64,000 nucleotides of DNA from Deltaproteobacteria bacterium HGW-Deltaproteobacteria-2. Its GTDB lineage: Bacteria; Desulfobacterota; Syntrophia; Syntrophales; Smithellaceae. The position numbers and the translations under genes are program-made. Below are positions 1 to 23,942 of this stretch, in pieces; position 1 is the first letter of the stretch, and every line of letters begins with the position of its first letter. The stretch spans positions 1 to 64,000 of the forward strand of contig PHBC01000002.1 of NCBI GenBank assembly GCA_002840505.1, in the 5' to 3' direction. The notes under the pieces are model-generated. The model did no database searches and was not told the origin of the DNA. It saw nothing but the letters and a program-made list of their open reading frames with translations.

Positions 1-1
1 T

Positions 2-1603
2 GCGCTCGACAAGGGTGATTTCCAAACGACAATGCAAAATTTGAACAAGATAGGCATTCTTAATTACGATGATGTTCCGGTAAAAACAAAATCCGGAAAG
101 CGTATCAATACGGATATATATCTCGTCGACAGGGCAGCGTTGGTACAATGTAATATCCGCGACATAAGTGAGCGAAAAAAGACTGAGTCTCAAAGGGAGG
201 CTGCAATCGAGTCGCTGCGAGAGAGTGAGGAGCGGTACAAGGCTCTTTTCGAAAGTTCACTCGATCTTGTTTACATAATTGATTTCGAAGGTCGCTTTAT
301 CGATGCCAACGCCGCCGCCTTGAATCGGCTTGGCTATACCAGGGAAGAAATGCCTTCCCTCAATTTTGCCTCGCTCTTGAGCGAAGATCAGCTTCTGTTT
401 GCTTTCAAAGGAATACAGGAGATTCGTGAAACCGGTATTCAAAGAAGCCTGATGGAGTTCAGGTTACGGTGCAAAGACGGCACCCATATATACGTGGAGA
501 CACACGGATCGGCCATCATGACCAACGGGACACTTGTAGCAATCCAGGCAATCGCCAGAGATATCACCAAACGCAAACTGGCGGAAGAGGCTTTAGAAGA
601 AAGTGAAAGAAAATATCGCCTGCTGGCTGATAACGTCAATGACGTCATTTTCGTTCTGGATATGAATTTGAATTGCACCTATATCAGCCCTTCCGTAAGA
701 ATCCTTAGAGGATATGAACCGGAAGAGGTGTTGAAATTACCGCCCGCTGATGCATTGATGCCCTCCTCCAGGGATTTGGCTATGAAACTCCTGTCCGATA
801 TCATGGACCTGGAGAAGATAAAACAAATAAAGAGTGACGAATCCCGTACGATACCGTTGGAGATGAAGCGAAAAGACGGAACTACCGTGTGGACGGAGGT
901 GAAGTTCTCCTTTATCAGAGATACAAATCAGCAACCAGTGGGCATTATAGGTTTAACCCGCAATATTACCGAGCGCAAACTGGCAGAGGCGAAACTTCTT
1001 GAGACTCTTAACAGCCTCAATAAGGCAGTTGATACAACTATTCAGGTCATGGTCGCTGCAATAGAGGTAAGAGATCCCTATACGGCCGGTCACCAATTCC
1101 GGGTTGCTCATCTGGCCAGTGCCATCGCGACGGAGATGGGATTAGATCAACTGAAAATTGATGGAATAAAGATGGCTGGTTCCATCCACGATATCGGGAA
1201 ATTGTCTATACCCTCAGAAATATTGTCCAAATCCACTAAACTGACAAACATCGAATTTTCTCTGATTCAAGAACACTCCCTGATTGGATACGAGATACTG
1301 AAGGATGTGGAATCTCCCTGGCCGCTGGCACAAATTGTTTATCAGCATCATGAACGGATGGACGGATCCGGCTATCCAAGAAATCTGAAAGGGTATGAAA
1401 TTCTCATGGAAGCCCGCATTATGGCTGTGGCAGACGTGGTGGAGGCCATGGCTTCCTACCGTCCCTATCGACCGTCTTTGGGCATTGATGCCGCCTTGGA
1501 GGAAATTGAGAAAAACAGGGGAATCCTTTATGATGCCACTGTAGTGGATGTCTGCCTGCGATTATTTCGAGAAAAAAGCTATAAACTTATTATTGGAAAA
1601 TAG
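2..1603 (+). CDS. PAS/HD-GYP cyclic-di-GMP phosphodiesterase (5' partial)
   Basis: The frame is open from base 2, so the protein begins before the window; the ATG at 32 lies inside a PAS domain and is probably not the start. The visible part holds the end of one PAS domain (closing in RDISERKK), a second PAS domain (about residues 75-190, closing in ARDITKRK), a third (about 200-325, closing in TRNITERK), and a C-terminal HD-GYP domain. The HD-GYP domain shows HDIGK and HHERMDGSGYP, the metal-binding and signature motifs of phosphodiesterases that hydrolyse c-di-GMP. PAS domains sense small ligands, redox state or light, so this is probably a sensor that lowers c-di-GMP. No transmembrane segment or receiver domain is seen in the visible part. 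The input signal cannot be read from the sequence. Confidence 0.93.
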   Translation, partial: ALDKGDFQTTMQNLNKIGILNYDDVPVKTKSGKRINTDIYLVDRAALVQCNIRDISERKKTESQREAAIESLRESEERYKALFESSLDLVYIIDFEGRFIDANAAALNRLGYTREEMPSLNFASLLSEDQLLFAFKGIQEIRETGIQRSLMEFRLRCKDGTHIYVETHGSAIMTNGTLVAIQAIARDITKRKLAEEALEESERKYRLLADNVNDVIFVLDMNLNCTYISPSVRILRGYEPEEVLKLPPADALMPSSRDLAMKLLSDIMDLEKIKQIKSDESRTIPLEMKRKDGTTVWTEVKFSFIRDTNQQPVGIIGLTRNITERKLAEAKLLETLNSLNKAVDTTIQVMVAAIEVRDPYTAGHQFRVAHLASAIATEMGLDQLKIDGIKMAGSIHDIGKLSIPSEILSKSTKLTNIEFSLIQEHSLIGYEILKDVESPWPLAQIVYQHHERMDGSGYPRNLKGYEILMEARIMAVADVVEAMASYRPYRPSLGIDAALEEIEKNRGILYDATVVDVCLRLFREKSYKLIIGK

Positions 1604-1988
1604 CGGGGGCAGTTTGAACCTTCATTGCGAACATGATAGTGAATGGCGCCAAAGAAAACGATCCTTATCATCTATACTTATTGTCATAAAAACGGCTGGG
1701 TTTCCCTGAAAAGCACGTTATTTTCTTGATATCCCTCCATATGCTGAGGCTCCACCGCATGTTGAGGCCAAGCGAATCATTTTATATATCTCCATTATTC
1801 CCACTTATTAACCTAACCATCTACTATTAAAGGATGAATTCAAGTTTCTTATTATTTTCGTTTGTTGGCAGGCTACTTGCAGTTACTATATGTAGGATGT
1901 TGGTCCTTATGCGAATGAAGGTCCACTCCGAAAAGCGTATAGAGTTGTAACAGATGTTCAACAAGTTAAAAGATCGAGAGGAAAATAT
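1604..1988. other. Non-coding region upstream of the YggT-like gene
   Basis: No convincing gene is present on either strand. The last 100 bases contain a 47-bp element (1891-1937) that recurs before the next small gene (2354-2400). A ribosome site (GAGGAAAA) precedes the ATG at 1989. The rest shows nothing recognisable. Confidence 0.5.
1891..1937 (+). repeat. 47-bp upstream element, copy 1
   Basis: It aligns without gaps to 2354-2400, with 34 of 47 bases identical by hand count. The common core reads TTGGTC, then TTAT, then GAATGAA. It lies about 50 bases before the YggT-like gene. Because both copies precede small genes, a shared control element is possible, but no known promoter class was matched. 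Confidence 0.45.
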
Positions 1989-2348
1989 ATGGACTCATCA
2001 TACAGTTCAGCAACTACTAGGCCTTTATACCGCGGTACCCAGGTTGTCTGGTATATTCTTGGTCTCATTGAAGTGCTATTGGCGTTTCGATTTGGCTTAA
2101 AGCTGCTTGCCGCCAACCCTTCTGCTGGTTTCAGCAGTTTCATTTACATTGTCAGTTATCCATTTGCCGGGCCGTTTCTCAATGTCTTCCATGCCTCGAA
2201 GGTGGAAAGCGGTATTTTTGAATGGACCACCTTGTTGGCCATGTTTGTCTTCTTTTTAATTGCCTGGGGCATTATCAGGCTGTTTTTTATGAGCAAAACA
2301 GTGTCCACGACGGAAGCTGCGGCTAAAATGGACGAAGAAAATAATTAA
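1989..2348 (+). CDS. YggT-like small membrane protein
   Basis: This 119-residue protein has two clear hydrophobic segments, about residues 22-42 (WYILGLIEVLLAFRFGLKLL) and 75-97. Between them lies the stretch YPFAGPFLNVF. The arrangement of a helix, a P-rich re-entrant stretch and a second helix resembles one repeat of the YggT family of membrane proteins, whose role is poorly defined (linked to osmotic stress and cell shape). The C-terminal 20 residues are charged and probably cytoplasmic. The start at 1989 is supported by GAGGAAAATAT just upstream. It is followed by another small gene, 2416-2643, with a related upstream element, and the two may respond to the same signal. The family call is by resemblance only. 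Confidence 0.6.
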   Translation: MDSSYSSATTRPLYRGTQVVWYILGLIEVLLAFRFGLKLLAANPSAGFSSFIYIVSYPFAGPFLNVFHASKVESGIFEWTTLLAMFVFFLIAWGIIRLFFMSKTVSTTEAAAKMDEENN

Positions 2349-2353
2349 GATTC

Positions 2354-2400
2354 TGTATGATCTTGGTCATTATAAGAATGAATGTAGTTTCTGAAAAATG
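2354..2400 (+). repeat. 47-bp upstream element, copy 2
   Basis: This is the second copy of the element at 1891-1937. It ends 15 bases before the ATG at 2416, directly ahead of a strong ribosome binding site (AAGGAGGTGAG). See copy 1 for the alignment. Confidence 0.45.
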
Positions 2401-2415
2401 CAAGGAGGTGAGAAT

Positions 2416-2643
2416 ATGTTAGTTGTTCGTAACGATAATCATTATGATTGCGTCGATGATTTTATGCTGGACAGCCTGATTGAATCCAAAGAGATTGTTA
2501 AATTCAAACGTAACACGGAATGGGTACAAGTAGGAGTAGCCCCGATGAGGGGTAATAAACCTGATAGAGTATTTAACGGCAACAATAAATTGGCGATTAA
2601 TGATTCAATATTTGTCCGCGCAGATCGCAATGCTATTAAATGA
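2416..2643 (+). CDS. Small hypothetical protein, GSU3473-like
   Basis: This soluble protein of 75 residues begins MLVVRNDNHYDCVDDFML. The start is set at 2416, not at the in-frame ATG at 2398, because AAGGAGGTGAG lies just before 2416 and the earlier ATG has no ribosome site. The pattern (an aromatic and charged N-terminus, DSLIESKEIVKFKRNTEWVQVGV, then a short tail with RG and basic residues) resembles small Geobacter-type proteins named after GSU3473. Their function is unknown. No catalytic motif or membrane segment is visible. The gene is preceded by a 47-bp element shared with the YggT-like gene upstream. Confidence 0.65.
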   Translation: MLVVRNDNHYDCVDDFMLDSLIESKEIVKFKRNTEWVQVGVAPMRGNKPDRVFNGNNKLAINDSIFVRADRNAIK

Positions 2644-2729
2644 GCAATCTGCTTTGTTGTAACTTGAGTCTATATAGTAGGCAGTAACTGAGTCATATTG
2701 GAATCGTCAGAATCCATAGGAGTGTGAAC

Positions 2730-3233
2730 ATGGAAGGTAAACGAAGTAAAGACAGTAGTATCATCATGACTCAGCAGATGACTGCTCAAGATGCAAATCT
2801 TGCAGGAAACGTTCATGGCGGGGTTATTATGAAATTCATCGATACCGCGGCCCTCGCCGTTGCGGTTCGTCACGCAAGAGCCAATGCAGTTACGGCCTCC
2901 ATTGACCGGTTGGACTTTCATTATCCGGTTTTTATCGGAGATCTTTTGACTGCACAAGCGAGTCTGAACTTCGTAGGGAAAACATCTATGGAAATAGGGG
3001 TTCGGGTGGAGACCGAAAATCTTATGACGGGACGGATACATCATACATCAACCGCCTATCTGACCTTCGTGGCCCTCGACAAAAGTGGTCGACCTATGCC
3101 GCTACCCCCGCTGATCATCAAGACAGAAGAGGAACAACGTCAAAATCTGGAGGCAAAAACCAGAAGAGAGATGCGTCTGAAAGAAAAGATAAAGGAAAAG
3201 GCAAACCATATCAATGCAGATAGCACTGACTGA
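2730..3233 (+). CDS. Acyl-CoA thioesterase, hotdog fold (YciA/BACH type)
   Basis: This 167-residue protein is predicted to hydrolyse acyl-CoA to free fatty acid and CoA. It carries the family pattern of an N-terminal strand, GNVHGGVIMKFIDTAALAVA (hotdog helix with the catalytic-type acid), and a central strand ending in FHYPVFIGDLL. The C-terminal 40 residues are highly charged (EEEQRQNLEAKTRREMRLKEK) and look like an extended helix. I prefer the ATG at 2730 over the in-frame GTG at 2724 because TAGGA sits 9 bases before the ATG and too close to the GTG. The gene is about 6 kb from the beta-oxidation block and may help recover CoA there, but substrate length cannot be read from the sequence. 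Confidence 0.85.
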   Translation: MEGKRSKDSSIIMTQQMTAQDANLAGNVHGGVIMKFIDTAALAVAVRHARANAVTASIDRLDFHYPVFIGDLLTAQASLNFVGKTSMEIGVRVETENLMTGRIHHTSTAYLTFVALDKSGRPMPLPPLIIKTEEEQRQNLEAKTRREMRLKEKIKEKANHINADSTD

Positions 3234-3287
3234 TTCCGGTTTTATCTAATTATTTAAATTTAAGGCTGAAATTATTATGGTTCAACG

Positions 3288-3806
3288 ATGAAGACGCAAG
3301 ACTTTATAAAACGTGTATTGTTAAAGGATACGACTGTGTCCATCCGGCCGATCCGTGCCGATGACTCTGGCATGGAACAGGATTTTATACGGCACCTGTC
3401 GAAAGAATCCCGCTATTTCCGATTCATGGCGTCGCTTAGGGAATTGTCGCCGAAGAAGCTCAAGTATTTCACCGAAATCGATTACGACCGGCACATGGCC
3501 TTTGTTGCTACCATCATGAGTGATGATAAAGAGCTGGAAATCGGCGTAGCGCGTTATGTGAACACCGAAAATCCCGGTAGTTGTGAGTTTGGCGTAACGG
3601 TAGACGATGCCTGGCATGGCAGCGGTGTGGCAGGGTTGCTGATGACCGCCCTGGAAGATACGGCACGCGAGTGCGGGTTCAAGACGATGGAGGGCATCGT
3701 ACTCCCAAGCAACGACAAGATGCTCAAATTCGCGCAGAAACGTGGCTTCAAAACCCACTCCGTTTCGGGAGAAGCCGATACCGTTCACATCGCACTGCAG
3801 TTGTGA
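3288..3806 (+). CDS. GNAT-family N-acetyltransferase
   Basis: This 172-residue protein has a GNAT fold with the acetyl-CoA loop at about residues 108-122 (DDAWHGSGVAGLLMTALE, a variant of the usual R/Q-x-x-G-x-G/A). The N-terminal half (SIRPIRADDSGMEQDFIRHLSKESRYFRF) is the pattern found in the acetyltransferase domain of PatZ/Pat-type lysine acetylases, which inactivate acyl-CoA synthetases. Here the acetyltransferase domain stands alone, without the large CoA-ligase-like part. A role in acetylating acyl-CoA enzymes is therefore possible but is inference. The ribosome site before 3288 is weak. Confidence 0.8.
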   Translation: MKTQDFIKRVLLKDTTVSIRPIRADDSGMEQDFIRHLSKESRYFRFMASLRELSPKKLKYFTEIDYDRHMAFVATIMSDDKELEIGVARYVNTENPGSCEFGVTVDDAWHGSGVAGLLMTALEDTARECGFKTMEGIVLPSNDKMLKFAQKRGFKTHSVSGEADTVHIALQL

Positions 3807-4033
3807 TCCAGCAATCGGCCGCTCTTCTTCCTTTCTTTATGTTATTTACAACGTCCCAAGACGGAATGACAGATGGTTTAAAATCATGCTTTGCGTAAAG
3901 GAGAAGGGGATTGCTACGCCGACTGAGAGTAGGCTGGAAATGACAAGCAGTGAGCAACTGAAAAACCGTTACTAGAAGTTGTTTTATCGTCAAATTAACG
4001 GATGCTTGAAAAGCTAACTGCAGGAGATAAATC

Positions 4034-5326
4034 ATGCTAAGGAATATCTTGAAAATGGTTTCATCTTTGATGATGAGTTTGTTGCTTGTCAGTTGTGCTT
4101 CTCAAAAATCCATAGCCCCATTTAACGCTACAGATGTCAATCCGGAATTGAATTCAAGCCAGCCTGCGCAGAAGATTGATAACCCGATAGCTGCTTCCCC
4201 GTCTCAACCTGTTAAAGTTTCCAAAGAGGCGATGCCTGTAAACGAACCTGGCTCCGCAATAGAGCAGACAATAGTTTCTAAAACGGAACCTGTGCCAGAA
4301 GATGTTTCCATTACCCTGAATGTGCAGTTTGATACCGGCAAGGCAAACATCAAACCAAAATATCACAATGACATTAAGAGAATTGCCGACGCGATGAACA
4401 AATATCCCGTAAGGACGGTGGTTATCATTGGACATACAGACAATGTCGGCAAAGAGTTGGTCAATGTTAAACTATCCTACCTTCGTGCCGCTAATATAAA
4501 AGCATATCTTGTTCAAAAGTTTGGTATCGATGGTTCACGCATTCGCGTGATCGGGTATGATTACCAAAAACCTATCGCCAGCAACAAAACGAAGGAAGGA
4601 AGACAAGCAAACCGTAGAGGCGAAACCCAAATTGAAACTAATGTGTCCTCTAATGTTGTATATTCTTTTTTTGAAGATTCCGATCTTCCAAAAGGCGGCT
4701 TTTCTATAGTAAATCAGGAATCAATTGATAAAAAGATTAAATCTTTTAAGGAAAGACAGGGGACTGCTTCCTATTTATCAAAAATAGTTAAAGAGCCTAC
4801 GCTGGAACTTTATAAAATGTGGGGTGGGATATTTTCTCATTGTGCCATTCGTATCGAAACAGGTCCACATTCATTTTATCAGCTTGAACTGCAATCTTTA
4901 TCTGATTTGGAAAAAGCAGGCATGAAAGATTTTCATAAAAGCGGGGCGGTAATTACTTTATTCGGAGTGACCACTGATCGTTTTGACATTGTGGAATTTA
5001 CCGACAAAAATGAACGGGCAAAATTGGATAGTATAGGACGCAATTATGCAACAATGTCAATTTGTATTAATAATAAATCTACCAGAAAGACAACTCAATG
5101 GTATCAGGATTGTCTGCGTAGATATGCTGAAAGGTACAATCCTGAAAATACGCTAAAAACCGGGAAACGGACAAAAGTATTCGAATATAATCCTGTAACC
5201 CATAATTGCTGTAACTTTGTAGAAGAGGCCCTGCAGGCTTGTGGATTAGAGCATTGTTTTGATTTGGGGAAAAGCACTAGCCTTTATCATGAAACCGGTC
5301 CGCTGGAAGAAAAAATAAAAGAATAA
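4034..5326 (+). CDS. OmpA-domain lipoprotein with C-terminal papain-like (NlpC/P60-LRAT-like) domain
   Basis: The 430-residue precursor starts with a lipoprotein signal (lipobox LVSC at about residues 18-21). A low-complexity linker (about 22-90) leads to an OmpA/Pal peptidoglycan-binding domain (about 95-205) with NVQFDTGKANIKP, IIGHTDNVG and a terminal R-x-x-R (NRRGE). The remaining ~220 residues are unusual: SHCAIRIETGPHSFYQLEL near 275 and THNCCNFVEEAL near 395. A His followed much later by an NC motif before a helix is the layout of permuted papain-like folds (LRAT and some NlpC/P60 relatives), with the second or first Cys as nucleophile. An acyltransferase or amidase acting at the cell wall is the best guess, not shown. 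A good ribosome site (CAGGAGATAA) precedes the start. Confidence 0.72.
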   Translation: MLRNILKMVSSLMMSLLLVSCASQKSIAPFNATDVNPELNSSQPAQKIDNPIAASPSQPVKVSKEAMPVNEPGSAIEQTIVSKTEPVPEDVSITLNVQFDTGKANIKPKYHNDIKRIADAMNKYPVRTVVIIGHTDNVGKELVNVKLSYLRAANIKAYLVQKFGIDGSRIRVIGYDYQKPIASNKTKEGRQANRRGETQIETNVSSNVVYSFFEDSDLPKGGFSIVNQESIDKKIKSFKERQGTASYLSKIVKEPTLELYKMWGGIFSHCAIRIETGPHSFYQLELQSLSDLEKAGMKDFHKSGAVITLFGVTTDRFDIVEFTDKNERAKLDSIGRNYATMSICINNKSTRKTTQWYQDCLRRYAERYNPENTLKTGKRTKVFEYNPVTHNCCNFVEEALQACGLEHCFDLGKSTSLYHETGPLEEKIKE

Positions 5327-5701
5327 ACTGCTCGTATTCCCCTCCACCAGAAGAAATATCTGATTAAATCATACATTAAAAAATAAACTTGACTTTTATA
5401 TCTCTTCCATATAATGATACCATCAAATGATGGAATCATTATATGGAAGAAGGCGATGGGAGTAGCCCCGAACTTGTGGGACTTTGTTTTTTAGTATGAA
5501 TAAATTCACAACACGTAAAGGCAAAGGCAGGAATCTGTGAATCTTCTTGTGCAGTTTTGTCTCAAAAGACCGGAGTGTATGTAATTCCTCTCCAGGTACG
5601 TTTTACCACCACCACGCCGGTTCGACGGTGGTCGGATAGTCAATGTTGCAAATCAGTTATTTATAGAGAAGCGGTTTATTTAATTCAACAGGAGGTATCA
5701 A
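5327..5701. other. Regulatory leader of the thiolase gene
   Basis: No gene is present. The region holds a promoter and 44-bp palindrome (5389-5448), a short decayed match to the start of a tetR-like gene (to about 5473), and then about 230 bases with a GC-rich hairpin near 5608-5636. It ends in the strong thiolase ribosome site AGGAGG. Confidence 0.6.
5389..5448 (+). promoter_or_regulatory. Promoter with 44-bp palindromic operator (thiolase), copy 1
   Basis: TTGACT (5389-5394) and TATAAT (5410-5415) form a promoter with a short 15-base spacer. From 5405 to 5448 there is a near-perfect palindrome: two 21-base arms starting TTCCATATAATGAT around a 2-base centre, one mismatch. The palindrome covers the -10 box, as expected for a repressor operator. 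The same block recurs at 9130-9188 before the beta-oxidation operon. A TetR-family regulator is encoded between them (8358-9017); that it binds here is inferred. Confidence 0.75.
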
Positions 5702-6874
5702 ATGCGAGATGTATTTATTGTCAGTGCTGTCAGAACGCCGGTTGGCAGGCGAAAAGGGTATTATCGTGAATACATAGCCCCGGAACTGCTTGCTCTTGTA
5801 CTCAACGAGGTTGTCGAACGCGTCCAACTTGACGTAAATCAATTGGACGATGTTATAACCGGATGCGTGTACCAGATCGGCGAACAGGGATTCAACATTG
5901 CGCGAATGGGTGTTCTATCATCACGGCTTCCGGTGACGCTGGGAGGTATCAGTGTGAACCGCCAGTGCGGGAGCAGCCTTTCCGCGATACAACTTGGCGC
6001 GGGAATGATAGCCGCGGGGACTATGGATACGGTAATTGCCAGCGGATGCGAACTCATGTCCAAGTATACCATCAGCTCCGATGTGCAAGGCACGTTACCC
6101 AACGGAGAGAATGCGGGACATCCAATCACGCAATTATACTTGGACCGTTACGGCATGCCGAACCAGATAGTCTCTGCTCAGGCCATAGCCAACCAGTGGA
6201 AAATAACCAAGGAAGAGTGTCAGGATTTTGCCATCGCGAGCCACGAAAAGGCTTTAAAGGCCACGAAAGAAGGCTATTTTAAAAAAGAGATCATGCCTGT
6301 GCGGGGACTGGACAAGGACGGTAACAAAATCCTTTGCGATACCGATGAGCCGATGCGTGCCGGAGTTACCAGGGAAGGACTTGACAGTCTCAAGGTATTG
6401 CCCGGAACCGAATGGATGACAGCAGGTCTTTCCAGCACAGTAACAGACGGGGTGTCCGCGGTGTTGCTCATGAGTGGTGAAAAAGTGAAGAAGCTGGGGC
6501 TGACGCCGCTGGCTCGCGTCGTGGCCAACGCCGTAGTTGGCTCCGACCCTAAGCTAATGCTCACCGGCCCCATGACCGCGACGCCGAAAGTGCTCAAGAT
6601 GGCTGGTTTGAAAATGGACGACATCGACCTCTTCGAAGTGAACGAGGCCTTTGCGCCGATCCCGCTGGCCTGGGCGAAAGAGATCAGGGCCGATATGACG
6701 AAACTCAACGTCAATGGCGGCGCCATGGCGCTGGGACACCCTGTGGGAAACAGCGGGTGCCGTCTCAGTGTCACCGCGATCCATGAGCTGCAACGGCGGA
6801 AAGCGAAATACGCCTTGGTGACCCTCTGCACTGGCGGCGGGCAGGCCCCGGCGACAATATTCGAAAGAGTTTAG
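5702..6874 (+). CDS. Acetyl-CoA acetyltransferase (thiolase)
   Basis: The 390-residue length is typical for a thiolase II, which condenses two acetyl-CoA to acetoacetyl-CoA or cleaves 3-ketoacyl-CoA. The catalytic residues are all visible: nucleophilic Cys near 89 (NRQCGSSLSAIQ), His near 346 (GGAMALGHPVGNSG) and the second Cys near 376 (LCTGGGQA). It has a strong ribosome site (ACAGGAGGTATCAA). It is transcribed alone behind a palindrome-controlled promoter that is nearly identical to the one before the beta-oxidation operon 3.6 kb downstream. This suggests it serves the same pathway, perhaps the last C4 to C2 step. Direction and chain length cannot be told from sequence. Confidence 0.93.
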   Translation: MRDVFIVSAVRTPVGRRKGYYREYIAPELLALVLNEVVERVQLDVNQLDDVITGCVYQIGEQGFNIARMGVLSSRLPVTLGGISVNRQCGSSLSAIQLGAGMIAAGTMDTVIASGCELMSKYTISSDVQGTLPNGENAGHPITQLYLDRYGMPNQIVSAQAIANQWKITKEECQDFAIASHEKALKATKEGYFKKEIMPVRGLDKDGNKILCDTDEPMRAGVTREGLDSLKVLPGTEWMTAGLSSTVTDGVSAVLLMSGEKVKKLGLTPLARVVANAVVGSDPKLMLTGPMTATPKVLKMAGLKMDDIDLFEVNEAFAPIPLAWAKEIRADMTKLNVNGGAMALGHPVGNSGCRLSVTAIHELQRRKAKYALVTLCTGGGQAPATIFERV

Positions 6875-7342
6875 CTTTAAAATTTGTTTATTACTGAAAC
6901 TCCCATTCCGAAAGCGCATAACCTAAATACCCTAAAGGGCACCATGGGGTCACTATAGGCACAACGGAATTGGTAAGTTGTAATGAGACTTTCTGAGAAC
7001 GAGTGTAACAAAGTTTGTCCTTGTTGCCTGAAGGTGGGGGGATAATTCGCTCTAGAAATTTACAAATGCTGCGTTTCGGCGCAGTGCCCTTTAGGGTGAA
7101 AATCAAGGCTCATTGAAGAGTAAGTTGAACTATCCAATAGCCAAGGCGTAGGCGTTCATTAAAGATCGGGTGCCCCGTGTATTAAGAGCATTTTTTCCGG
7201 CATTTACGGCTTAATTTTAATAATTAAACATTGAGCTTTTTTATCAGCAGTTCCCTGTAACAAGGCGTTCGGTGGTTTTTATAGGCCCGCATCATTGAAA
7301 AAATGATGGTCTATAATTCAAAAGCTTTATTAGGAGACTGAA
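6875..7342. other. Intergenic region with MITE-like element
   Basis: The region is non-coding. The main structure is a 169-bp segment bounded by perfect 14-bp inverted repeats (6929-7097). After it, about 240 bases lead to the TatT-like gene, with a ribosome site (TAGGAGACTGAA) at the end. No promoter was assigned with confidence. Confidence 0.5.
6929..7097. repeat. MITE-like element with 14-bp terminal inverted repeats
   Basis: ACCCTAAAGGGCAC at 6929-6942 is matched exactly in inverted form at 7084-7097. The 141 bases between contain no open frame of note. Size, perfect termini and lack of coding capacity fit a miniature inverted-repeat element. No clear target-site duplication is visible, so a simple structured RNA or chance remains possible. 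Confidence 0.5.
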
Positions 7343-8269
7343 ATGATGACAAAAAAGATTAGACTTCTTTTCAAGGGCATCTCAATCATCGGTTTAATTT
7401 TTTTCCTGGCCGTGGGTGTATCCGGGTGCACGGCAACAAGGCACACTGTACAGAATACCGCCGTTACTTTACTGGACACGTCGGTGGATGATCTTGTGGA
7501 TGGCATTATGAGGACAAATAATGGTGCCTTTGTAAAAGACGGTCTCCCCGGGGCTCTGCTGGTGATTACAGGTCTGACCGAACTGGCGCCGACAGATTAT
7601 AAACTGCTGTCAACAACGTCGTTCCTGTATGCTGCATATGCTCTGTTTGTAGAGGACGGAAATGAAGATTACGCCATATCTCTTTACAAGGTTGGAACAG
7701 AATATGCGTTGCGAGCCATGAAAGTCAATAATTCTAAATTCCGTAAAGCTTTAGAAAGTGGGACACCTGTTTATGATGCAGTTAAATTCCTGACTAAAGA
7801 TGATTTGAAAGCTCTGACCTGGTATGGGGTCAATCTTGCCAAGCGGGTAACGCTGCAGTTGGAAACTCCGGATGTGATTATGGATGTCCAGGATGGCATT
7901 GCTGCGGCTAAGCGTGGCAACGAGATTGATCCAAAATATTCCTGGGGGGTCAACTGGGCTGTTCTGGGCGTCTTTTATGCAATTATACCACCCGTAATGG
8001 CCTTGGGCGGAGGAGCTGAAACTTCCCGCGATGCATTTGCTAACGGCAACAAGGCGGAAAATGGTGAATTTGGAGTGATGGATGTATTGCAGGCAAGGTA
8101 TCTTGCTGCACTCATCAAGGATCCGGAAATGTATGACCGGTTGAACAATAGAGTACTGCAAATGGATCCCTGTAAGCTTGGTGGCGGCCTATGTATAGTA
8201 AATGAACTGGCCAAGCAAAAGGCGCGGTATAATCTGGAATATAAATGCAGATACATGGATTGCCCCTGA
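7343..8269 (+). CDS. TRAP-associated TatT-family lipoprotein
   Basis: The 308-residue precursor has a lipoprotein signal with lipobox VSGC (Cys near residue 29). The mature part is almost wholly helical, with repeated motifs (LLSTTSFLYAAYALFVEDG, KRGNEIDPKYSWG). This matches the TatT family of TPR-like periplasmic lipoproteins, whose Treponema member forms a complex with a TRAP solute-binding protein and is thought to bind hydrophobic ligands. Three DctP/TatP-like proteins are encoded 10-20 kb downstream, but no TRAP membrane subunits occur in the window. The start is fixed by TAGGAGACTGAA. Cys residues in the C-terminal tail (DPCKLGGGLC, CRYMDC) are notable. A role in uptake of fatty or aromatic acids is inference. 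Confidence 0.82.
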   Translation: MMTKKIRLLFKGISIIGLIFFLAVGVSGCTATRHTVQNTAVTLLDTSVDDLVDGIMRTNNGAFVKDGLPGALLVITGLTELAPTDYKLLSTTSFLYAAYALFVEDGNEDYAISLYKVGTEYALRAMKVNNSKFRKALESGTPVYDAVKFLTKDDLKALTWYGVNLAKRVTLQLETPDVIMDVQDGIAAAKRGNEIDPKYSWGVNWAVLGVFYAIIPPVMALGGGAETSRDAFANGNKAENGEFGVMDVLQARYLAALIKDPEMYDRLNNRVLQMDPCKLGGGLCIVNELAKQKARYNLEYKCRYMDCP

Positions 8270-8357
8270 CAGTTTATTTTAACATGAGACAAGTTGTTCA
8301 AGCAAAAATTGAAAAATAAACTTGCAAACGATGGAAGCGTACTATAAAATAAAAAAC

Positions 8358-9017
8358 ATGAGAACAGCACTCGAAAAAGCCCGCAAAGACCCCGAATCGA
8401 TGAAGGCAAGGATTCTTGCCGCTGCGCGTATCGTGTTCGGTGAATACGGTTTCCACGGTACGACAACCAGGATGCTCGCCAAGGAAGTTGGCATCGACAT
8501 TTCCACACTGCACTACCATTGGGGTGACAAAAAGGACCTGTATGAGGCCGTCATCCTCGACATGAACCGCGACTTGGGACGCGAGCTTAGCGCGGTGGAA
8601 AAAATAATCCATGGCCGTCCCCTGGGGGAACGTATAAAAATTGCCATAGCTTTGATGACGGACTACCTGTTCGCCAACCCCGAAGTATCGAATCTCATGT
8701 TCCATCGTTATTTCAGCAAAACAAGGCACGATATGATAATTGATTTCAAAGTCCCGGAATTCACCGGCGACATTGCCCGCTCAATGGGTTTGACAAAGGA
8801 CGCAAAAAAAACACCTCCCAGGGGCATGCTGGAAGTCCTGACAGTTATGAACGGCATCCATAATTTTGTCTCCGGAGAAAACTTCTTCCGTCCCATGGTT
8901 AAACTCAACCATAAAGAGTACATCGAAATGGTCAAGGAGACCCTGCAGTTCGTCCTCACACCGGCCTTCACAAGCAGGGAAGAAAAGAAAAGTCAGAGGG
9001 CTCGAAAAAATCCTTAG
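8358..9017 (+). CDS. TetR-family transcriptional regulator
   Basis: The protein has about 219 residues. The N-terminal domain (about residues 10-60) has the TetR helix-turn-helix: ARILAAARIVFGEYGFHGTT, then TRMLAKEVGIDISTLHYHWG. The C-terminal ligand-binding domain is divergent, as usual. Longer in-frame starts exist (TTG 8322, ATG 8331), but a decayed copy of the gene start at 9197 aligns from the ATG at 8358, which supports this start. No good ribosome site is seen, and TATAAAAT lies only 8-15 bases upstream. The gene lies just before the beta-oxidation operon and between two copies of a palindromic operator, so it is the obvious candidate repressor, perhaps sensing acyl-CoA. Its own upstream region lacks the palindrome. 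Confidence 0.88.
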   Translation: MRTALEKARKDPESMKARILAAARIVFGEYGFHGTTTRMLAKEVGIDISTLHYHWGDKKDLYEAVILDMNRDLGRELSAVEKIIHGRPLGERIKIAIALMTDYLFANPEVSNLMFHRYFSKTRHDMIIDFKVPEFTGDIARSMGLTKDAKKTPPRGMLEVLTVMNGIHNFVSGENFFRPMVKLNHKEYIEMVKETLQFVLTPAFTSREEKKSQRARKNP

Positions 9018-9129
9018 AATCGGCAGTTCAGGGGAGCGATCAAAATCATTTTGACATACGATACAGTACTTCTCATACTCCCTTACATCAGAAGCAATAG
9101 ATAGTTAAATCAAATAATAAAAAATAAAC

Positions 9130-9188
9130 TTGACTTTTATATTTCATCCATATAATGATACCATCAAATGATGGAATCATTATATGGA
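9130..9188 (+). promoter_or_regulatory. Promoter with 42-bp palindromic operator (beta-oxidation operon), copy 2
   Basis: TTGACT (9130-9135) and TATAAT (9151-9156) with a 15-base spacer are overlapped by a palindrome at 9147-9188 with 20-base arms and one mismatch. From AAAATAAACTTGACTTTTAT through the palindrome the sequence is almost identical to 5382-5448. This is presumably where the adjacent TetR protein represses the operon. Confidence 0.75.
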
Positions 9189-9196
9189 ATATGACG

Positions 9197-9268
9197 ATGA
9201 GAGCAGCCCTCGAAAAGGACTACAAAGACCCTGAATCGATGAAGGCAACTGGACTTCCAATTGCTTAA
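9197..9268 (+). pseudogene. Truncated tetR 5' remnant (or leader ORF)
   Basis: An ATG at 9197 (another in frame at 9191) opens a 23-codon frame. Its first 16 residues (MRAALEKDYKDPESMK) match the start of the TetR protein at 8358 (MRTALEKARKDPESMK), and the DNA is also similar. Homology stops abruptly after GAAGGCAA and the frame ends at TAA 9266-9268. This is most simply the leftover of a second tetR-like gene whose operator now drives the operon. Translation as a leader peptide cannot be excluded. A weaker remnant follows copy 1 of the operator (about 5452-5473). Confidence 0.65.
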
Positions 9269-9298
9269 AAACATTCTTAGATAAGGAGGATTTGGTTC

Positions 9299-10441
9299 AT
9301 GAACATTATTCCCTACTCGGCGGAGCATAATATCTTCCGGGAGAGTCTCCGTAAATTTCTTGACAAAGAAATCGTACCCCATGTTGAAGAGTGGGAAGAG
9401 GCGGGAATTGTTCCCAGGAGCGCCTGGAAAAAGATGGGGGAGCAGGGATTTTTATGCACTGCTGTTCCCGAGGAATATGGAGGAGCCGGCTGCGATTTCC
9501 TCTATTCGGTAATTGTCGGCGAAGAAATGGTTAGGGCGAACTTTTCAGGACTGACCGCGTCGCTGCACAGCGACATCATTGTTCCCTACATTACCACCTT
9601 CGGCAGCGAAGCTCAGAAGCAAAAGTATCTCCCCGGTTGTGTCACCGGAGATATCATTACGGCGGTGGCCATGACGGAACCCAATACGGGAAGCGACCTT
9701 GCCGCCATGAAGACGACGGCCGTGGAGGACGGGGAAGATGTCATCCTGAACGGTCAGAAGACCTTTATCAGCAACGGGATCAACTGTGATCTGTGTGTTG
9801 TGGCTGCGAAGGATCCGGCCTGCAGTGATCCCCACAAAGCCGTGGATCTTTATCTGGTGGAAGCAGGCACTCCCGGATTTGAGAAGGGCAGGCAGATCAA
9901 AAAAATCGGCTGGCACAGCCAGGACACATCAGAGCTCTATTTTACGGACTGCCGGATCCCCAGGAGCAACCGCCTGGGTGAGAAGGGGACAGGGTTTCTG
10001 AATCTTATGCTGAAGCTTCAGCAGGAACGCCTTGTCTGCGCAATCGGAGCCATGGCAGCCGCCGAATTCATGCTCGAGATCACCGTCAAGTATTGTAAGG
10101 AGCGGACAGTTTTTGGAAAGCCCATCTCCAAGTTTCAGGTCAACCAGTTCACCATTGTGGAAATGGCCACCGAGATCAAGCTCGGGAGGACCTTCGTTGA
10201 CAAGTTGATCATGGACCATATGGAGGGTCTCAACGTTGTGATCGAGACGTCCATGGCCAAATACTGGATCACGGACATGGCCAACAAGGTCGCGGACCAT
10301 TGCCTTCAGCTTCACGGGGGGTATGGGTACTGCGATGAATACGGAATATCACGCGCCTGGCGCGACATCCGGGTGACACGGATCTTTGCCGGGACAAACG
10401 AAATCATGAAAGTCATTATTGCCCGGTTTATGGGGTTATAG
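9299..10441 (+). CDS. Acyl-CoA dehydrogenase
   Basis: The 380 residues give the standard length of this FAD-dependent family, which makes the trans-2-enoyl-CoA in the first step of beta-oxidation. The N-terminal helical domain runs to about 120, followed by the flavin-contact stretch VAMTEPNTGSDLAAM (about 122-136). The C-terminal helical domain contains ERTVFGKPISKFQ, LHGGYGY and the catalytic-base motif FAGTNEIMK near 370. The strong ribosome site AAGGAGGATTTGG fixes the start. It is the first gene of an operon with acyl-CoA ligase, thiolase and FadJ. In syntrophs electrons from such enzymes go to EtfAB, which is not in this window. The preferred chain length is unknown. Confidence 0.94.
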   Translation: MNIIPYSAEHNIFRESLRKFLDKEIVPHVEEWEEAGIVPRSAWKKMGEQGFLCTAVPEEYGGAGCDFLYSVIVGEEMVRANFSGLTASLHSDIIVPYITTFGSEAQKQKYLPGCVTGDIITAVAMTEPNTGSDLAAMKTTAVEDGEDVILNGQKTFISNGINCDLCVVAAKDPACSDPHKAVDLYLVEAGTPGFEKGRQIKKIGWHSQDTSELYFTDCRIPRSNRLGEKGTGFLNLMLKLQQERLVCAIGAMAAAEFMLEITVKYCKERTVFGKPISKFQVNQFTIVEMATEIKLGRTFVDKLIMDHMEGLNVVIETSMAKYWITDMANKVADHCLQLHGGYGYCDEYGISRAWRDIRVTRIFAGTNEIMKVIIARFMGL

Positions 10442-10500
10442 GCACCATCATTATCATAATTTTAAGCACCAAAACTATTTAGCACAGGGAGGTTAAAGCC

Positions 10501-12138
10501 ATGATGAACTATCCTTTGTTGCTCACCAATTTCATGCAGCATGCGGCCAGGTATTATCCAACCAAGGAGATCGTGTCCGTTTACGCGACCGGAACTTTCC
10601 GTTATACTTATGCTGACTGGTACAATCGCACATGCCAGCTTGCTAGAGCCCTTCACTCGCTTGGCATCAAAAAGGGTGACAGGGTTGCCTCTTTTTCTCT
10701 GAACAACCATCGCCATATGGAACTTTACTTTGGCGTTCCGTGCATGGGTGCTGTTTTGCACACGCTTAATATAAGGCTGTCCGCTGAAAATCTGGTTTAC
10801 ATCATTAATCATGCAGAAGACCGCATTCTCTTCATTGACGAAGATGTTTACTTCCTTATTGAGCCGTTTAAAGATCAACTCAAGACTATCGAAAAATATG
10901 TCATCATGTCCCAAACCGGGGTAATGCCATCAACCACACTCTCTCCGGTTGTCCTGTATGACGATCTGATTAAAGAATATCCGGAGAGCTATGATTTCCC
11001 ACTGGACCGCGATGAAAACGAACCATGCCTCATCTGTTACACTTCGGCAACAACGGGTGATCCCAAAGGGGTTGTTTACAGCCATCGTGGTCTCGTGTTG
11101 CACTCTTTTGCCACTGGGATTGTCATGGGCGTCCAGGAAAACGACTGTATGCTGCATATCGTTCCCATGTTTCATGCCAACGCCTGGGGTGCTCCATTTG
11201 TCTGCACTTTGCGCGGCATGAAACAAGTGCTGCCGGGGCGTCAAATCCTGGATATGACGGTGCTGTGCCGGATCATCGCCGAAGAGAAGGTAACCTTCTC
11301 CTGCGGTGTGCCGACTATTTGGATAATGCTCCACAGTTACCTGGAAAACGGCGGAGCACATGACTTTTCTTCCATCCGCCGGTTATTCTCCGGCGGATCG
11401 GCCATGCCACGGCATCTCATTGAATCATTTGAAAAAAAATACGGCGTCATTGTAGCGCAGGGTTACGGAGCAACGGAAACGTCGCCAGTTGTCACCTTGT
11501 CCATTCCCAAAAGCTATATGGAAACTCTGAGTGTTGATGAAAAGATTGATATCCGGACCACAGCGGGAATGCCCATACCGGGACTTGATGTAAAACTGAT
11601 CAACACGCAAACGGGCAAAGAAGTGCGCATGGATGGCAAGGAAATGGGAGAAATTCTGGTACGCGGGCCCTGGATCGCCTCAGAATATTATAAAAACCCA
11701 GAACAAAGCGCGGTCACCTTTCCGGACGGGTGGTTTCATACCGGCGATATTGGAACAATGAGCAAAGAAGGTTATATCTCCCTCGTTGATCGGACAAAAG
11801 ACCTCATTAAGAGCGCAGGGGAGTGGATTTCCTCCATCGATCTGGAAAACGTTATTATGGGATTCTCCAAGGTGCTGGAGGCGGCGGTAATCAGTATGCC
11901 CGATGAGAAATGGCAGGAGAGGCCTCTGGCCTGCGTTGTGCCGCAGCCTGAGGCAGCAAAGACTATTACAAAAGAGGAGATACAGGATTATCTAAAAGAT
12001 AAGGTCGCCAAATGGTGGATTCCTGATGAAATTGTTTTCATGCAGGAACTTCCCAAGACCAGCGTGGGAAAATTCGACAAGAAAAAACTCCGGGTGACGG
12101 TGATACCGGATATTCTAAAGAAGAGAGGTAATGTATGA
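10501..12138 (+). CDS. Fatty-acyl-CoA synthetase (AMP-forming)
   Basis: This 545-residue enzyme of the adenylate-forming (ANL) family activates a fatty acid to acyl-CoA using ATP. Motifs in order: the P-loop-like CYTSATTGDPKGVVYSHR (about 178-195), GYGATETSP (about 321-329), the hinge TGDIG (about 417), and the C-terminal catalytic Lys in KTSVGKFDKKKL (near 525). It resembles the medium/long-chain group that includes FadD3-like and dimethylsulfoniopropionate-type ligases. A ribosome site (GGGAGGTTAAAGCC) precedes ATG 10501. It overlaps the next gene by 4 bases (ATGA), showing translational coupling. The context makes it the entry enzyme of the beta-oxidation operon. Confidence 0.94.
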   Translation: MMNYPLLLTNFMQHAARYYPTKEIVSVYATGTFRYTYADWYNRTCQLARALHSLGIKKGDRVASFSLNNHRHMELYFGVPCMGAVLHTLNIRLSAENLVYIINHAEDRILFIDEDVYFLIEPFKDQLKTIEKYVIMSQTGVMPSTTLSPVVLYDDLIKEYPESYDFPLDRDENEPCLICYTSATTGDPKGVVYSHRGLVLHSFATGIVMGVQENDCMLHIVPMFHANAWGAPFVCTLRGMKQVLPGRQILDMTVLCRIIAEEKVTFSCGVPTIWIMLHSYLENGGAHDFSSIRRLFSGGSAMPRHLIESFEKKYGVIVAQGYGATETSPVVTLSIPKSYMETLSVDEKIDIRTTAGMPIPGLDVKLINTQTGKEVRMDGKEMGEILVRGPWIASEYYKNPEQSAVTFPDGWFHTGDIGTMSKEGYISLVDRTKDLIKSAGEWISSIDLENVIMGFSKVLEAAVISMPDEKWQERPLACVVPQPEAAKTITKEEIQDYLKDKVAKWWIPDEIVFMQELPKTSVGKFDKKKLRVTVIPDILKKRGNV

Positions 12139-13442
12139 ACACTAATAATCACGATCGAGTAGCTGTTATTGATGCCTGCCGGACACCGTTTATGCGTGCC
12201 GGCACGGACTATTATGACCTGATGGCCTGGGAGCTTGGTCGCTATGCTGTCAAAGGGCTCATCGTCAGAACGGGGATTAATCCTTCGCTCATCGATTATG
12301 TAATCATGGGCACGGTTATAGCTGAGGTTACCACAACCAATGTAGCCAGAGAGATAATGCTGGGTGCGGGGCTTCCCAGAACGATACCTGCTCATACCTG
12401 CACGGCGGCCTGTGTTTCGGGGAACATCGCTGTTACCTCCGCCTGCGATATGATTAATTCCGGCCAAGTGAACACAGTTATTGCCGGCGGCGTGGAATCC
12501 ATGTCCGATCTCCCAATTAAAATCGGCAAGCGGTACCGGCGCTTTCTTCTCGATCTCTCCCTGTATAAGCGCCCTAAAAGCATCTCAGGGAAACTTAAGC
12601 TGCTCAAGGGAATGAAGCTTAAGGATTTCTTTGCTGTCGATCAACCGGCTATTGCTGAGTATTCCACGGGTCTTTCCATGGGCGCCAATGCTGACAGGCT
12701 GGCGCGCCGCCTTGGCATTGCCAGAGAGGAGCAGGACAAGTTTGCCGCCCGTTCTCATAAATTGGCTGACGCCGCTATCAAGAATGGAATTATGAAAAAG
12801 GAAATCGTTCCCGTTGTTGTCCCCCAGACAGGCAAGTTGGTGAAGGATGATAACGGACCGCGTGCGGATGCCACTGCCGAAAAGATGGCCTCCTTGAAAC
12901 CGGCTTTTGATAAGCGCTACGGAACCGTTACAGCGGCTAACTCTTCATTTCTCACGGATGGCGCTTCGGCAGTACTGCTTATGAAGGAATCAAAAGCGAA
13001 ATCTCTGGGGTTAAAACCTTTAGCCTATATCCGGGCTTATTCCCAGGCAGGATCCGATCCCTGGGAAGAACTGCTGCTGGGGCCGGCTTTTTCTGCTGCT
13101 CGCGCCTTAAAAAATGCGGGCATCTCTCTTGCCGATGTAAAAGTTCTGGAAATCCACGAAGCTTTTGCCGCGCAGATTCTCGCCAATATCCGTTATATGG
13201 AATCAGAAAAATGGGGACGAGAAAAACTGGGGCTGGATGGCAAAATGGGCGTCGTTGATCAGGAACTGCTCAACACCCGGGGGGGGTCTCTGTCCATCGG
13301 CCACCCTTTCGGGGCAACGGGCGGGAGGCTTATTGCCAGTTGCTGTAACCGTATGCAGGACGAGAATGCTCAGTTCGGCCTTGTTGCCGCCTGCGGAGCG
13401 GGAGCTATAGGCAATACCATTATTCTGGAAAACGCACGATAG
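12135..13442 (+). CDS. 3-Ketoacyl-CoA thiolase (FadI-like)
   Basis: At 435 residues it is longer than a typical acetyl-CoA acetyltransferase and close to the FadI/trifunctional-beta type. The nucleophile Cys lies in TAACVSGNIAV near 95, the His in SIGHPFGATGG near 390, and the second Cys in VAACGAGAIG near 422. An inserted segment (about 125-165, rich in Lys and Arg) distinguishes this type from the shorter thiolase at 5702. The start overlaps the stop of the ligase gene, and AGAGAGGTAATGT serves as ribosome site. It precedes the fadJ-like gene by 11 bases, so the two probably form a trifunctional-type complex that completes each beta-oxidation round. Confidence 0.93.
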   Translation: MNTNNHDRVAVIDACRTPFMRAGTDYYDLMAWELGRYAVKGLIVRTGINPSLIDYVIMGTVIAEVTTTNVAREIMLGAGLPRTIPAHTCTAACVSGNIAVTSACDMINSGQVNTVIAGGVESMSDLPIKIGKRYRRFLLDLSLYKRPKSISGKLKLLKGMKLKDFFAVDQPAIAEYSTGLSMGANADRLARRLGIAREEQDKFAARSHKLADAAIKNGIMKKEIVPVVVPQTGKLVKDDNGPRADATAEKMASLKPAFDKRYGTVTAANSSFLTDGASAVLLMKESKAKSLGLKPLAYIRAYSQAGSDPWEELLLGPAFSAARALKNAGISLADVKVLEIHEAFAAQILANIRYMESEKWGREKLGLDGKMGVVDQELLNTRGGSLSIGHPFGATGGRLIASCCNRMQDENAQFGLVAACGAGAIGNTIILENAR

Positions 13443-13453
13443 AGGAGATGACG

Positions 13454-15580: not shown

Positions 15581-15781
15581 TAATATATCATGCCCGGGGC
15601 TATGTAAGGCTTTAAGCTTCCCGATTTTATGGCTAAGATTTTCTTAATTTTAGTTTGTTATCTTTCGCAGTTATAGAAGTAATGTTTTACCGCAGAAATT
15701 TCCGGCCGCAGTGCCATTTCTTAAGGACGGACATGTACTTGATGTTGAATGCAAAAGAAAAACACAAAAGGAGGTTTTTGT

Positions 15782-17641: not shown

Positions 17642-17850
17642 AGTCAAAAAGAATAAAGATCCATCCTCCTGTTTCCCCCTTGATTCCAAGGGGAGAAAAA
17701 GGTAGGAATTACGTATTTCGCAGACCATTATAATTTGGCTTCAATAAGTTCTTTCCAGGGGAGAAGCCTTTAGAAGCTTAATGGACTTGATATATGCGTT
17801 TCTTAACTGCCAATTTTATGCAAAAAATATTAATAGGAAAGGAGATGTTT

Positions 17851-18948: not shown

Positions 18949-19619
18949 ATAGTTTGTATAAGAAAGAAAAAAAAAGAGGTTAGCAACCGTAACCTGATAA
19001 CCCGATGGTAAGGCGAAGTCATTTACGATCGAAAGGAAAAACAGCGAACTTATAACTTCTATGTGATAAATAATTCAGGATTCTTTGGCCACGCCAGAGA
19101 ATGAAAGATGTAAAATGTCTTTACTCATCTTGACCTGTGGAACCAAACCATAAAAGAGCCCAATTCGAGAGTTGGGCTCTTTTATGGTTATTCCTTCAAA
19201 ATAAAAAGATTATTCTGGTTTACTGATTATTTTTTTGAAGTCGGTAATTATCGATTCATTCAATCCTTTGCATTAATTTACTATAATAGTTCTACTCCCT
19301 CCGCCTTCACCAAGGCATGGTTTTATTTAACTCACTGATCTTGTTAATGGCTAATACTATTTCTTATGCATTCCAAATGTAGATCTATGATTTGTGAAAA
19401 TGTGTGAAACTTTATTGATGGCAATTAGGGAAATTAGAGACAACGCCCTGTTATTTGATTTCCGCTATTCAGGCAAACTCAAACGTGCTCTTTTGCGCGA
19501 ACGGCAATTCGCGCAGGTTATAGATGAAAATCAGGCTAGTTTTTCATTGACACACATGTCCGAAATTCCTATAGTTCCAATATGAATAAGCAATATTTTA
19601 TCAAAGCACGAATACCCGT
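18949..19619. other. Long intergenic region after the first TRAP binding protein
   Basis: It contains a strong symmetrical hairpin (19146-19189). The stretch 18975-19060 has several short complementary runs (GGTTAGCAACC and others) and could be structured, but it matched no riboswitch I know. A 63-codon frame at 19394-19585 has no ribosome site and no recognisable product, and I do not call it. A gene boundary and change of function lie here. Confidence 0.4.
19146..19189. terminator. Bidirectional terminator-like hairpin
   Basis: A perfect 18-base stem (left arm AACCATAAAAGAGCCCAA, 8-base loop TTCGAGAG) with the GC core GAGCCCAA/TTGGGCTC followed by TTTTATGG. The A-run on the left and T-run on the right make it usable in both directions. 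It lies about 200 bases after the stop of the binding-protein gene. Confidence 0.8.
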
Positions 19620-23775: not shown

Positions 23776-23942
23776 GTTTTTATTTCATAATTTATTTTTA
23801 AGTTATCTAAAAGTAAATTTTAAGAAGTAATGTAAATGAAGTTCTTCTGGTCATAATTAGCGGCAAAACAGCATAATCTACAATATACTGTGAAATAATA
23901 ATTATTATTATCTATTAAAAACATCTTACGAAGGAGGCTTTT

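Follow-up and report, generated by a model that had tools for sequence, protein, structure and literature searches.

A long palindromic operator predicted for a TetR-family regulator before a thiolase gene and a beta-oxidation operon of a Smithellaceae bacterium

The first 64,000 nucleotides of contig PHBC01000002.1 (assembly GCA_002840505.1, Deltaproteobacteria bacterium HGW-Deltaproteobacteria-2, family Smithellaceae), hereafter the window, contain a thiolase gene and a fatty acid beta-oxidation operon that each follow a promoter overlaid by an unusually long palindrome. A gene for a TetR-family regulator lies in the same region, and the question raised by this locus is whether that regulator recognizes the palindromes and what their length would mean. 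The palindromes are predicted, with good though not full confidence, to be operators of this TetR protein. Each would be composed of an 18-bp core and additional half-sites at 13-bp steps offering room for two or three overlapping dimers that would probably be released by acyl-coenzyme A (acyl-CoA), and the operon would have acquired its operator through a copied tetR promoter fused in front of it.

The original prediction, made from the sequence of the window, described the same promoter, TTGACT-N15-TATAAT, at two places 3.7 kb apart, and it can be read directly at both (Table 1). It also placed the tetR gene between the two promoters, adjoining the operon and without the palindrome, which is likewise the case, apart from a half-site relic retained upstream of the gene. 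G052 and G055, both relatives, show the thiolase promoter layout, with the spacer 16 bp long. A consensus promoter scan, which takes spacers of 16–18 bp only, lists TTGACT-18-AATGAT at both places; it returned 10 promoter-like sites against 6.7 in shuffles. The palindromes are near-perfect and cover the −10 boxes as predicted, with the lengths corrected from 42–44 bp to 48 bp before the thiolase gene and 42 bp before the operon. Palindromes with arms of at least 18 nt and no more than one mismatch occur only at these two places in the 64 kb and not at all in 10 shuffled windows. The scan requires five perfect innermost pairs and therefore passes over an inverted repeat at 19146–19189 that has a mismatch near its centre. 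This repeat, identified by an inverted-repeat search of bases 1–20000, is of similar quality (21-nt arms, 95%), lies 3′ of a DctP gene and is probably a terminator. The half pattern of the operator has four matches in the window, a count reached by none of 100 shuffles. When the full 40-nt pattern was searched in the 3.28-Mb assembly with up to three mismatches, only the same two places were returned, and the reversed control returned none. Both promoters are located within a 142-nt direct repeat (121/142 identical), inside which the palindrome forms a 43-nt identical run compared with 78/99 identity outside it; a run of this length arises in 541 of 100,000 permutations.

The basic unit of both palindromes is an 18-bp inverted repeat, TTCCATCA-NN-TGATGGAA, positioned directly 3′ of the −10 box and reading TACCATCAAATGATGGAA in the thiolase operator (5418–5435). 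A third core site of this genome, absent from the original prediction, is found at G000:C3:11979–11996. The gene 3′ of this C3 site belongs to the acetate/propionate-CoA ligase family, with PRK00174 above its cut-off and the PrpE models below theirs. At up to three mismatches the core has 35 places in the genome (three with one mismatch, two with two and 30 with three) against six for the reversed control, an excess that may hide weak true sites.

Many relatives of the regulator carry the same core in their own promoters. From 209 relatives the best 80 were taken as the named TetR loci, which mostly come from metagenome-assembled genomes (MAGs) labelled Smithella, Syntrophus, Syntrophaceae, Desulfobacteraceae or Deltaproteobacteria, with Syntrophales and Desulfobacterales also among the labels. 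Two TetR orthologs (L192 and L208) are located in MAGs labelled Phycisphaerales and Spirochaetes, through either mis-binning or transfer. Upstream regions were counted at 79 loci with enough upstream sequence, the window included, and L168 and L183 (less than 60 nt upstream) were skipped. The core lies no more than 120 nt upstream of tetR at 44 of the 79 loci with up to three mismatches and at 40 with up to two, and in 32 of the 44 its first base is exactly 38 nt before the tetR ATG. The reversed core never falls below five mismatches upstream of tetR at the same 79 loci. The core is missing before tetR in the window and in Smithella sp. SCADC and D17, which belong to the 35 loci without it. 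From these comparisons, the window TetR very probably binds the core, and many of its relatives very probably repress their own genes through it.

The sequence flanking the core accounts for the length of the palindromes. In 31 of the 44 tetR sites the right half-site is followed 13 bp later by an exact TGGAA, at core position 27 (38/44 with one mismatch), and C20 and A21 are also conserved (84 and 77%). When the whole 16-letter motif is slid along these 44 sites, the mean number of mismatches is 6.0 at +13 and 10.95 at −13; +26 also scores low (mean 8.4), but the start-codon region contributes there. The corresponding means are 6.2 and 9.2 in 24 hand-picked sites before acyl-CoA genes, from which duplicates were removed. 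This match at +13 suggests that a second, weaker predicted dimer site overlaps the core. The tetR promoter of L188 (HGW-Deltaproteobacteria-19) contains TGGAA at core positions 14, 27, 40, 53 and 66, a five-fold array with a 13-bp period. Of the 44 relatives, one has a left half-site at −12. The thiolase promoters of the window, SCADC and D17 also have it, and the operon promoter carries a version with one mismatch. By this distribution, the long palindrome seems to be a mirrored extension, particular to this lineage, of an older operator with three half-sites. The comparative evidence agrees with the original proposal of one long operator on which two dimers may sit, with the extra length composed of half-sites at 13-bp steps around the core.

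The strongest alternative, which is rather unlikely but retains about one chance in four by our estimate, is that a single TetR dimer occupies the 18-bp core and that the long palindrome is accidental, its outer arms being by-products of a Shine-Dalgarno sequence on the right and the −10 box on the left. The left arm does contain the −10 TATAAT, the right half-site does occupy the place of the tetR Shine-Dalgarno sequence, and the outer half-sites are weak at the C3 site and in G052 and G055. However, TGGAA is also found at +13 where no start codon is nearby, exactly in 12 of the 24 acyl-CoA-gene sites and with no more than one mismatch in 21. It is likewise kept in the tetR promoters of L188, L207 and L219, where the ATG is displaced, and the 43 bp identical in the two window copies include both arms.

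The second question is whether the core marks targets of this regulator or of another protein. Orthologs, defined by a best E < 1e-40 (a cut set by the analyst), are encoded in 52 of the 155 genomes of the order, and the core with no more than one mismatch occurs at 41 places in 33 of the 155, with none for the reversed control. A site is present in 24/52 genomes with the ortholog and in 9/103 without it (Fisher p = 4e-7, an optimistic value as the species are related). Classified by the analyst's reading of mechanically called open reading frames (ORFs), the 31 places in genomes with the ortholog comprise 14 before tetR (including a contig end that carries a copied tetR site), 15 before genes for acyl-CoA enzymes, one before an NMO-family gene and one within an ORF. 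Two of these calls, G123:C99 and G151:C197, were flagged as lying inside ORFs that oppose a synthetase or tetR gene just 3′, and those ORFs were set aside. The acyl-CoA targets include thiolase genes, enoyl-CoA hydratase operons, an acyl-CoA dehydrogenase operon, acetyl/propionyl-CoA synthetase genes and a gene for an HMG-CoA-synthase-like protein. Where the ortholog is absent, the core has 10 places, none of which precedes tetR or an acyl-CoA-type gene; eight are within ORFs and two in unrelated gaps. The small fatty acid regulon that had been proposed fits these counts, as 30 of the 31 places precede tetR or acyl-CoA-type genes by this reading, and the motif is not found mostly away from acyl-CoA genes. 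It is accordingly improbable that a different regulator binds the palindrome and that TetR is a mere neighbour: the genome does encode eight further TetR-like proteins (E ≤ 0.001) and the window tetR is itself without a site, but the motif tracks the presence of the ortholog between genomes and occupies the ortholog's own promoter at more than half of the loci counted.

The regulator features a TetR helix-turn-helix domain at residues 19–65 (PF00440, 54.2 bits against a cut-off of 24) and is 97% identical to the TetR proteins of SCADC and D17. Its AlphaFold model (pLDDT, the predicted local distance difference test, 86.3) exhibits an all-helical TetR fold over the full length. VIA Z-scores range from 13.1 to 14.5 for all 50 listed structures over 165–193 residues, with FasR and AibR at approximately 14, and Foldseek identified FadR of Bacillus halodurans and FasR (E 2e-4 to 1e-3). 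FadR of Bacillus, FasR and AibR are acyl-CoA-responsive regulators that target genes of acyl-CoA metabolism. The target genes and these fold neighbours point to an acyl-CoA as the probable ligand of the window TetR. The best sequence match in the Protein Data Bank (3e-8) covers residues 4–73 only, and the tied structures do not settle orthology with a characterized regulator. The protein does not reach the cut-off of the PsrA equivalog model NF053516 (39.1 bits against 300).

It is very unlikely that the palindrome acts as RNA, in the form of a 5′-leader hairpin controlling transcript stability or termination. The dyad is long and near-perfect, and cmscan returned generic hairpins at low score, the best being mir-753 with 27.4 bits against a 62-bit threshold. 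Since the −10 box is within the left arm, the transcript should start inside the palindrome and would lack the outer left arm, and relatives keep the core without that arm. Rfam provided no match at gathering score in the window, and the stretch 5420–5705 folds no better than shuffles (z 0.6).

The operon promoter also carries evidence of its origin. A 52-bp relic of tetR codons, absent from the original prediction, follows the operator and begins with an ATG at core position 39 (9197), the tetR start position in most relatives. Among the 17 genomes of the genus, this one included, it matches elsewhere only the tetR genes of three genomes. The relic ends in a junction word shared with the spacer before the dehydrogenase gene of G052, and the G055 spacer has GAAAACAAC at the junction position. 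From the junction on, the last 45 bases of the spacer are identical to G052 at 38 positions and to G055 at 35. In G052 the gene order is tetR, operator, thiolase, hydratase, dehydrogenase, ligase, fadI and fadJ. The simplest reading is that a fusion at this shared word of 8–9 bp put the operon under the control of a copied tetR promoter. The chimeric 23-codon ORF that follows the operator could encode a leader peptide. The thiolase promoter is a near-copy of the operon promoter and has an ATG at the same core position that is possibly a decayed tetR start; either the tetR or the thiolase promoter may have come first. Before the resident tetR gene, comparison with the operon promoter indicates an apparent 32-bp deletion that follows AAAAATAAACTTG and precedes CAAACGATGGAA (between CTTG and CAAA), with the −10 box and left arm gone. 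SCADC and D17 exhibit the same relic layout before tetR. The consensus scan lists TTGCAA-17-TAAAAT there, where it performs little better than chance. The resident tetR has apparently lost its operator through this deletion, is probably no longer autoregulated and would be expressed constitutively. A small mobile or repeat element inserted at two places is the least probable explanation of the palindrome, suggested by two near-identical copies within a repeat; full copies number only two in the whole assembly, the core recurs at the same position upstream of many tetR orthologs, in MAGs labelled Syntrophales, Desulfobacterales and others, and the second copy carries tetR codons.

Several observations weigh against the proposed TetR operators and their derivation. 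The core is absent from 34 of the 78 other tetR promoters, so autoregulation is not universal. Near-identical relatives inflate the counts, which reduce to 28 operator clusters, 18 of them with TGGAA at position 27. As tetR starts at core position 39 in most relatives, the +13 half-site coincides with the Shine-Dalgarno location, and five tetR promoters whose ATG is at 24–25 have an inexact TGGAA; the half-site is nevertheless kept before acyl-CoA genes with a distant start. Seven acyl-CoA-gene sites were left out of the hand-picked set: two in L085, and five close to MaoC- or CaiB-like genes in L206, L212, L215 and L223 (two sites). All seven lack an exact TGGAA at +13, and their inclusion would give 12/31. 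The C3 site is without the right outer arm and its left outer arm is degraded, so the outer arms are not required for every target. Neither G052 nor G055 has an ATG or tetR start at core position 39 of its thiolase operator. Finally, many helical TetR structures tie within one Z unit and the fold singles out no ligand, so the acyl-CoA assignment draws on gene context.

With these points considered, the predicted TetR operators would function as follows. A TetR dimer on the core, just 3′ of the −10 box, would obstruct RNA polymerase. The +13 half-site common in relatives, together with its mirror at −13 in this lineage, would produce the palindrome of 42–48 bp with room for two or three overlapping dimers, and the extra dimers may tighten repression or make it more cooperative. 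TetR would probably be released by an acyl-CoA that the cell produces when supplied with fatty acids. In many relatives the protein would repress its own gene; in the window, the acyl-CoA dehydrogenase operon would have received a copy of the tetR promoter and first codons, joined to the spacer ahead of it, a near-copy of this promoter would drive the thiolase gene, and the tetR gene, having lost its own operator, would probably be without autoregulation.

Table 1. Features of the predicted TetR-controlled locus, with positions in the window
Feature	Position	Strand	Description or evidence
Thiolase promoter	5389–5415	+	−35 TTGACT 5389–5394, 15-bp spacer, −10 TATAAT 5410–5415; sequence
Thiolase palindromic operator	5403–5450		23-nt arms, one mismatch, 2-nt centre; half-sites 5405–5409, 5418–5422, 5431–5435 and 5444–5448, spaced 13 bp
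Thiolase 5′ leader	5451–5701	+	Alignable in two congeners, two genomes of genus g7 and the C3 locus of the same genome
ATG at core position 39, possible decayed tetR start	5456–5458	+	Sequence compared with relatives
Thiolase, acetyl-CoA C-acyltransferase family	5702–6874	+	PF00108/PF02803; TIGR01930 above cut-off
TRAP-transporter T-component (TAtT) lipoprotein	7343–8269	+	PF16811
Half-operator relic CAAACGATGGAA before tetR	8325–8336	+	By-eye comparison with 9116–9196
TetR-family regulator, 219 aa	8358–9017	+	PF00440, 1.2e-14; AlphaFold model
Operon promoter	9130–9156	+	−35 TTGACT 9130–9135, 15-bp spacer, −10 TATAAT 9151–9156; sequence
Beta-oxidation operon palindromic operator	9147–9188		20-nt arms, one mismatch; core 9159–9176; half-sites 9146–9150 (one mismatch), 9159–9163, 9172–9176 and 9185–9189
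Relic of tetR codons 1–17	9197–9248	+	87% to 8358–8409, 90% to G029 tetR
Chimeric 23-codon mini-ORF MRAALEKDYKDPESMKATGLPIA, left by the presumed fusion	9197–9268	+	Between operator and operon
Junction word GAAGGCAAC, tetR codons / ancestral pre-dehydrogenase spacer	9241–9249	+	Present in G052 spacer
Acyl-CoA dehydrogenase, first gene of operon	9299–10441	+	PF00441/PF02770/PF02771
AMP-forming fatty-acyl-CoA ligase	10501–12138	+	PF00501; PRK06187 above cut-off
FadI-like thiolase	12135–13442	+	Domain and family profile matches
FadJ-like enoyl-CoA hydratase / 3-hydroxyacyl-CoA dehydrogenase	13448–15580	+	Domain and family profile matches
Second acyl-CoA dehydrogenase, likely same operon	15749–17641	+	Domain profile match

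Downstream of the thiolase operator, a leader of approximately 120 nt (window 5474–5597) is common to the thiolase and the C3 acetyl/propionyl-CoA synthetase across two genera. Seven loci align, among them L111:8024–8142, L112:6948–7066, L084:10948–11070 (−) and L130:5862–5984 (−). Its identity is 74% to G055 and 64% to G052, with the fourfold sites of the thiolase gene slightly lower (67 and 56%). The leader is not established as a structured RNA. Predicted pairs hold in 89.9% of cells compared with 43–59% after sliding, and 29 of 500 shuffles attain the covariation score; two pairs are changed on both sides, which 107 of 500 shuffles also reach, and Rfam returned no match in eight leader loci at E ≤ 0.5. 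A covariance model of the leader applied to the 155 genomes recovered the seven seed loci strongly and four weak congener matches (E 0.002–0.004). No match to the window thiolase or operon proteins was obtained in the 1.6–3.1 kb around each of these four, where one GNAT relative and one weak OmpA match were identified.

TRAP solute-binding (DctP) genes are found near both the window operon (17794–18948 and 23925–24998) and the C3 synthetase site (L111:12389–13402). The genes at 23925–24998 and L111:12389–13402 are 77 and 80% identical, respectively, to the gene at 17794–18948, and these proteins may carry a substrate of the same pathway. Four congeners (L259–L262, in G037, G038, G044 and G043) encode an acyl-CoA dehydrogenase that is 79–80% identical and preceded by different DNA; a close ortholog of the window TetR was not found in these four.

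Among known systems, QacR also has a long palindrome, and its cooperative complex with DNA (1jt0) has a VIA Z-score of 13.5 to the window TetR. QacR places two dimers on one long palindrome, which is read as overlapping dimer sites, with an offset smaller than the 13 bp observed here and with drugs as its ligands. The TetR-type FadR of Bacillus, FasR and AibR share the fold with the window protein, but at 12–17% identity, and many other TetR structures score equally. FadR_Sa of Sulfolobus acidocaldarius, a studied precedent for the proposed mechanism, is a TetR-family protein of a beta-oxidation cluster with four genomic sites and release by acyl-CoA, and its operators bind one dimer, or two cooperatively, according to sequence (PMC6449355). 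The window TetR resembles it in being a TetR-family protein over beta-oxidation genes with few genomic sites. FadR_Sa is archaeal, however, and its second dimer touches sequence adjacent to the motif, whereas a clear half-site is present here at +13 (and −13); release of the window TetR by acyl-CoA is a prediction. A comparative study describes control of fatty acid degradation in Proteobacteria by the TetR-family regulators PsrA and FadP, with most of the regulators studied autoregulated and only five of the 33 factors occurring in deltaproteobacteria (PMC5343134). The PsrA and FadP regulons so described likewise place fatty acid degradation under TetR-family control, but the window TetR is far below the PsrA cut-off. 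In Desulfococcus multivorans, a related sulfate reducer, a TetR-type FadR2 is proposed to mediate myristate-specific protein formation (PMC5109826). In the open-access literature, no described binding site of a fatty acid regulator in Smithella-type syntrophs or related sulfate reducers was found, nor was the motif or regulon.

TetR-type acyl-CoA regulators are therefore known, and what appears to be new is the assignment of this clade to a predicted operator, the 13-bp phasing of the half-sites and the operon promoter apparently derived from tetR. The circuit is sound but fairly ordinary; the operator design is unusual. As a tentative generalization, which we hold as possible and well short of likely, this TetR clade may read arrays of TGATGGAA half-sites phased at 13 bp, rather than at 10–11 bp, with dimers stacking from a strong core. 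Repression would be tuned in individual lineages by extending the array or adding its mirror image, and the circuit would spread as further operons receive a copy of the tetR promoter and first codons. In oil fields, sediments and digesters, fatty acids and alkanes are broken down by Smithella-type syntrophs and related sulfate reducers, and with a defined operator and candidate regulator their regulon can be searched and tested. The locus would also illustrate how the promoter and first codons of a regulator gene can be copied and fused before an operon.

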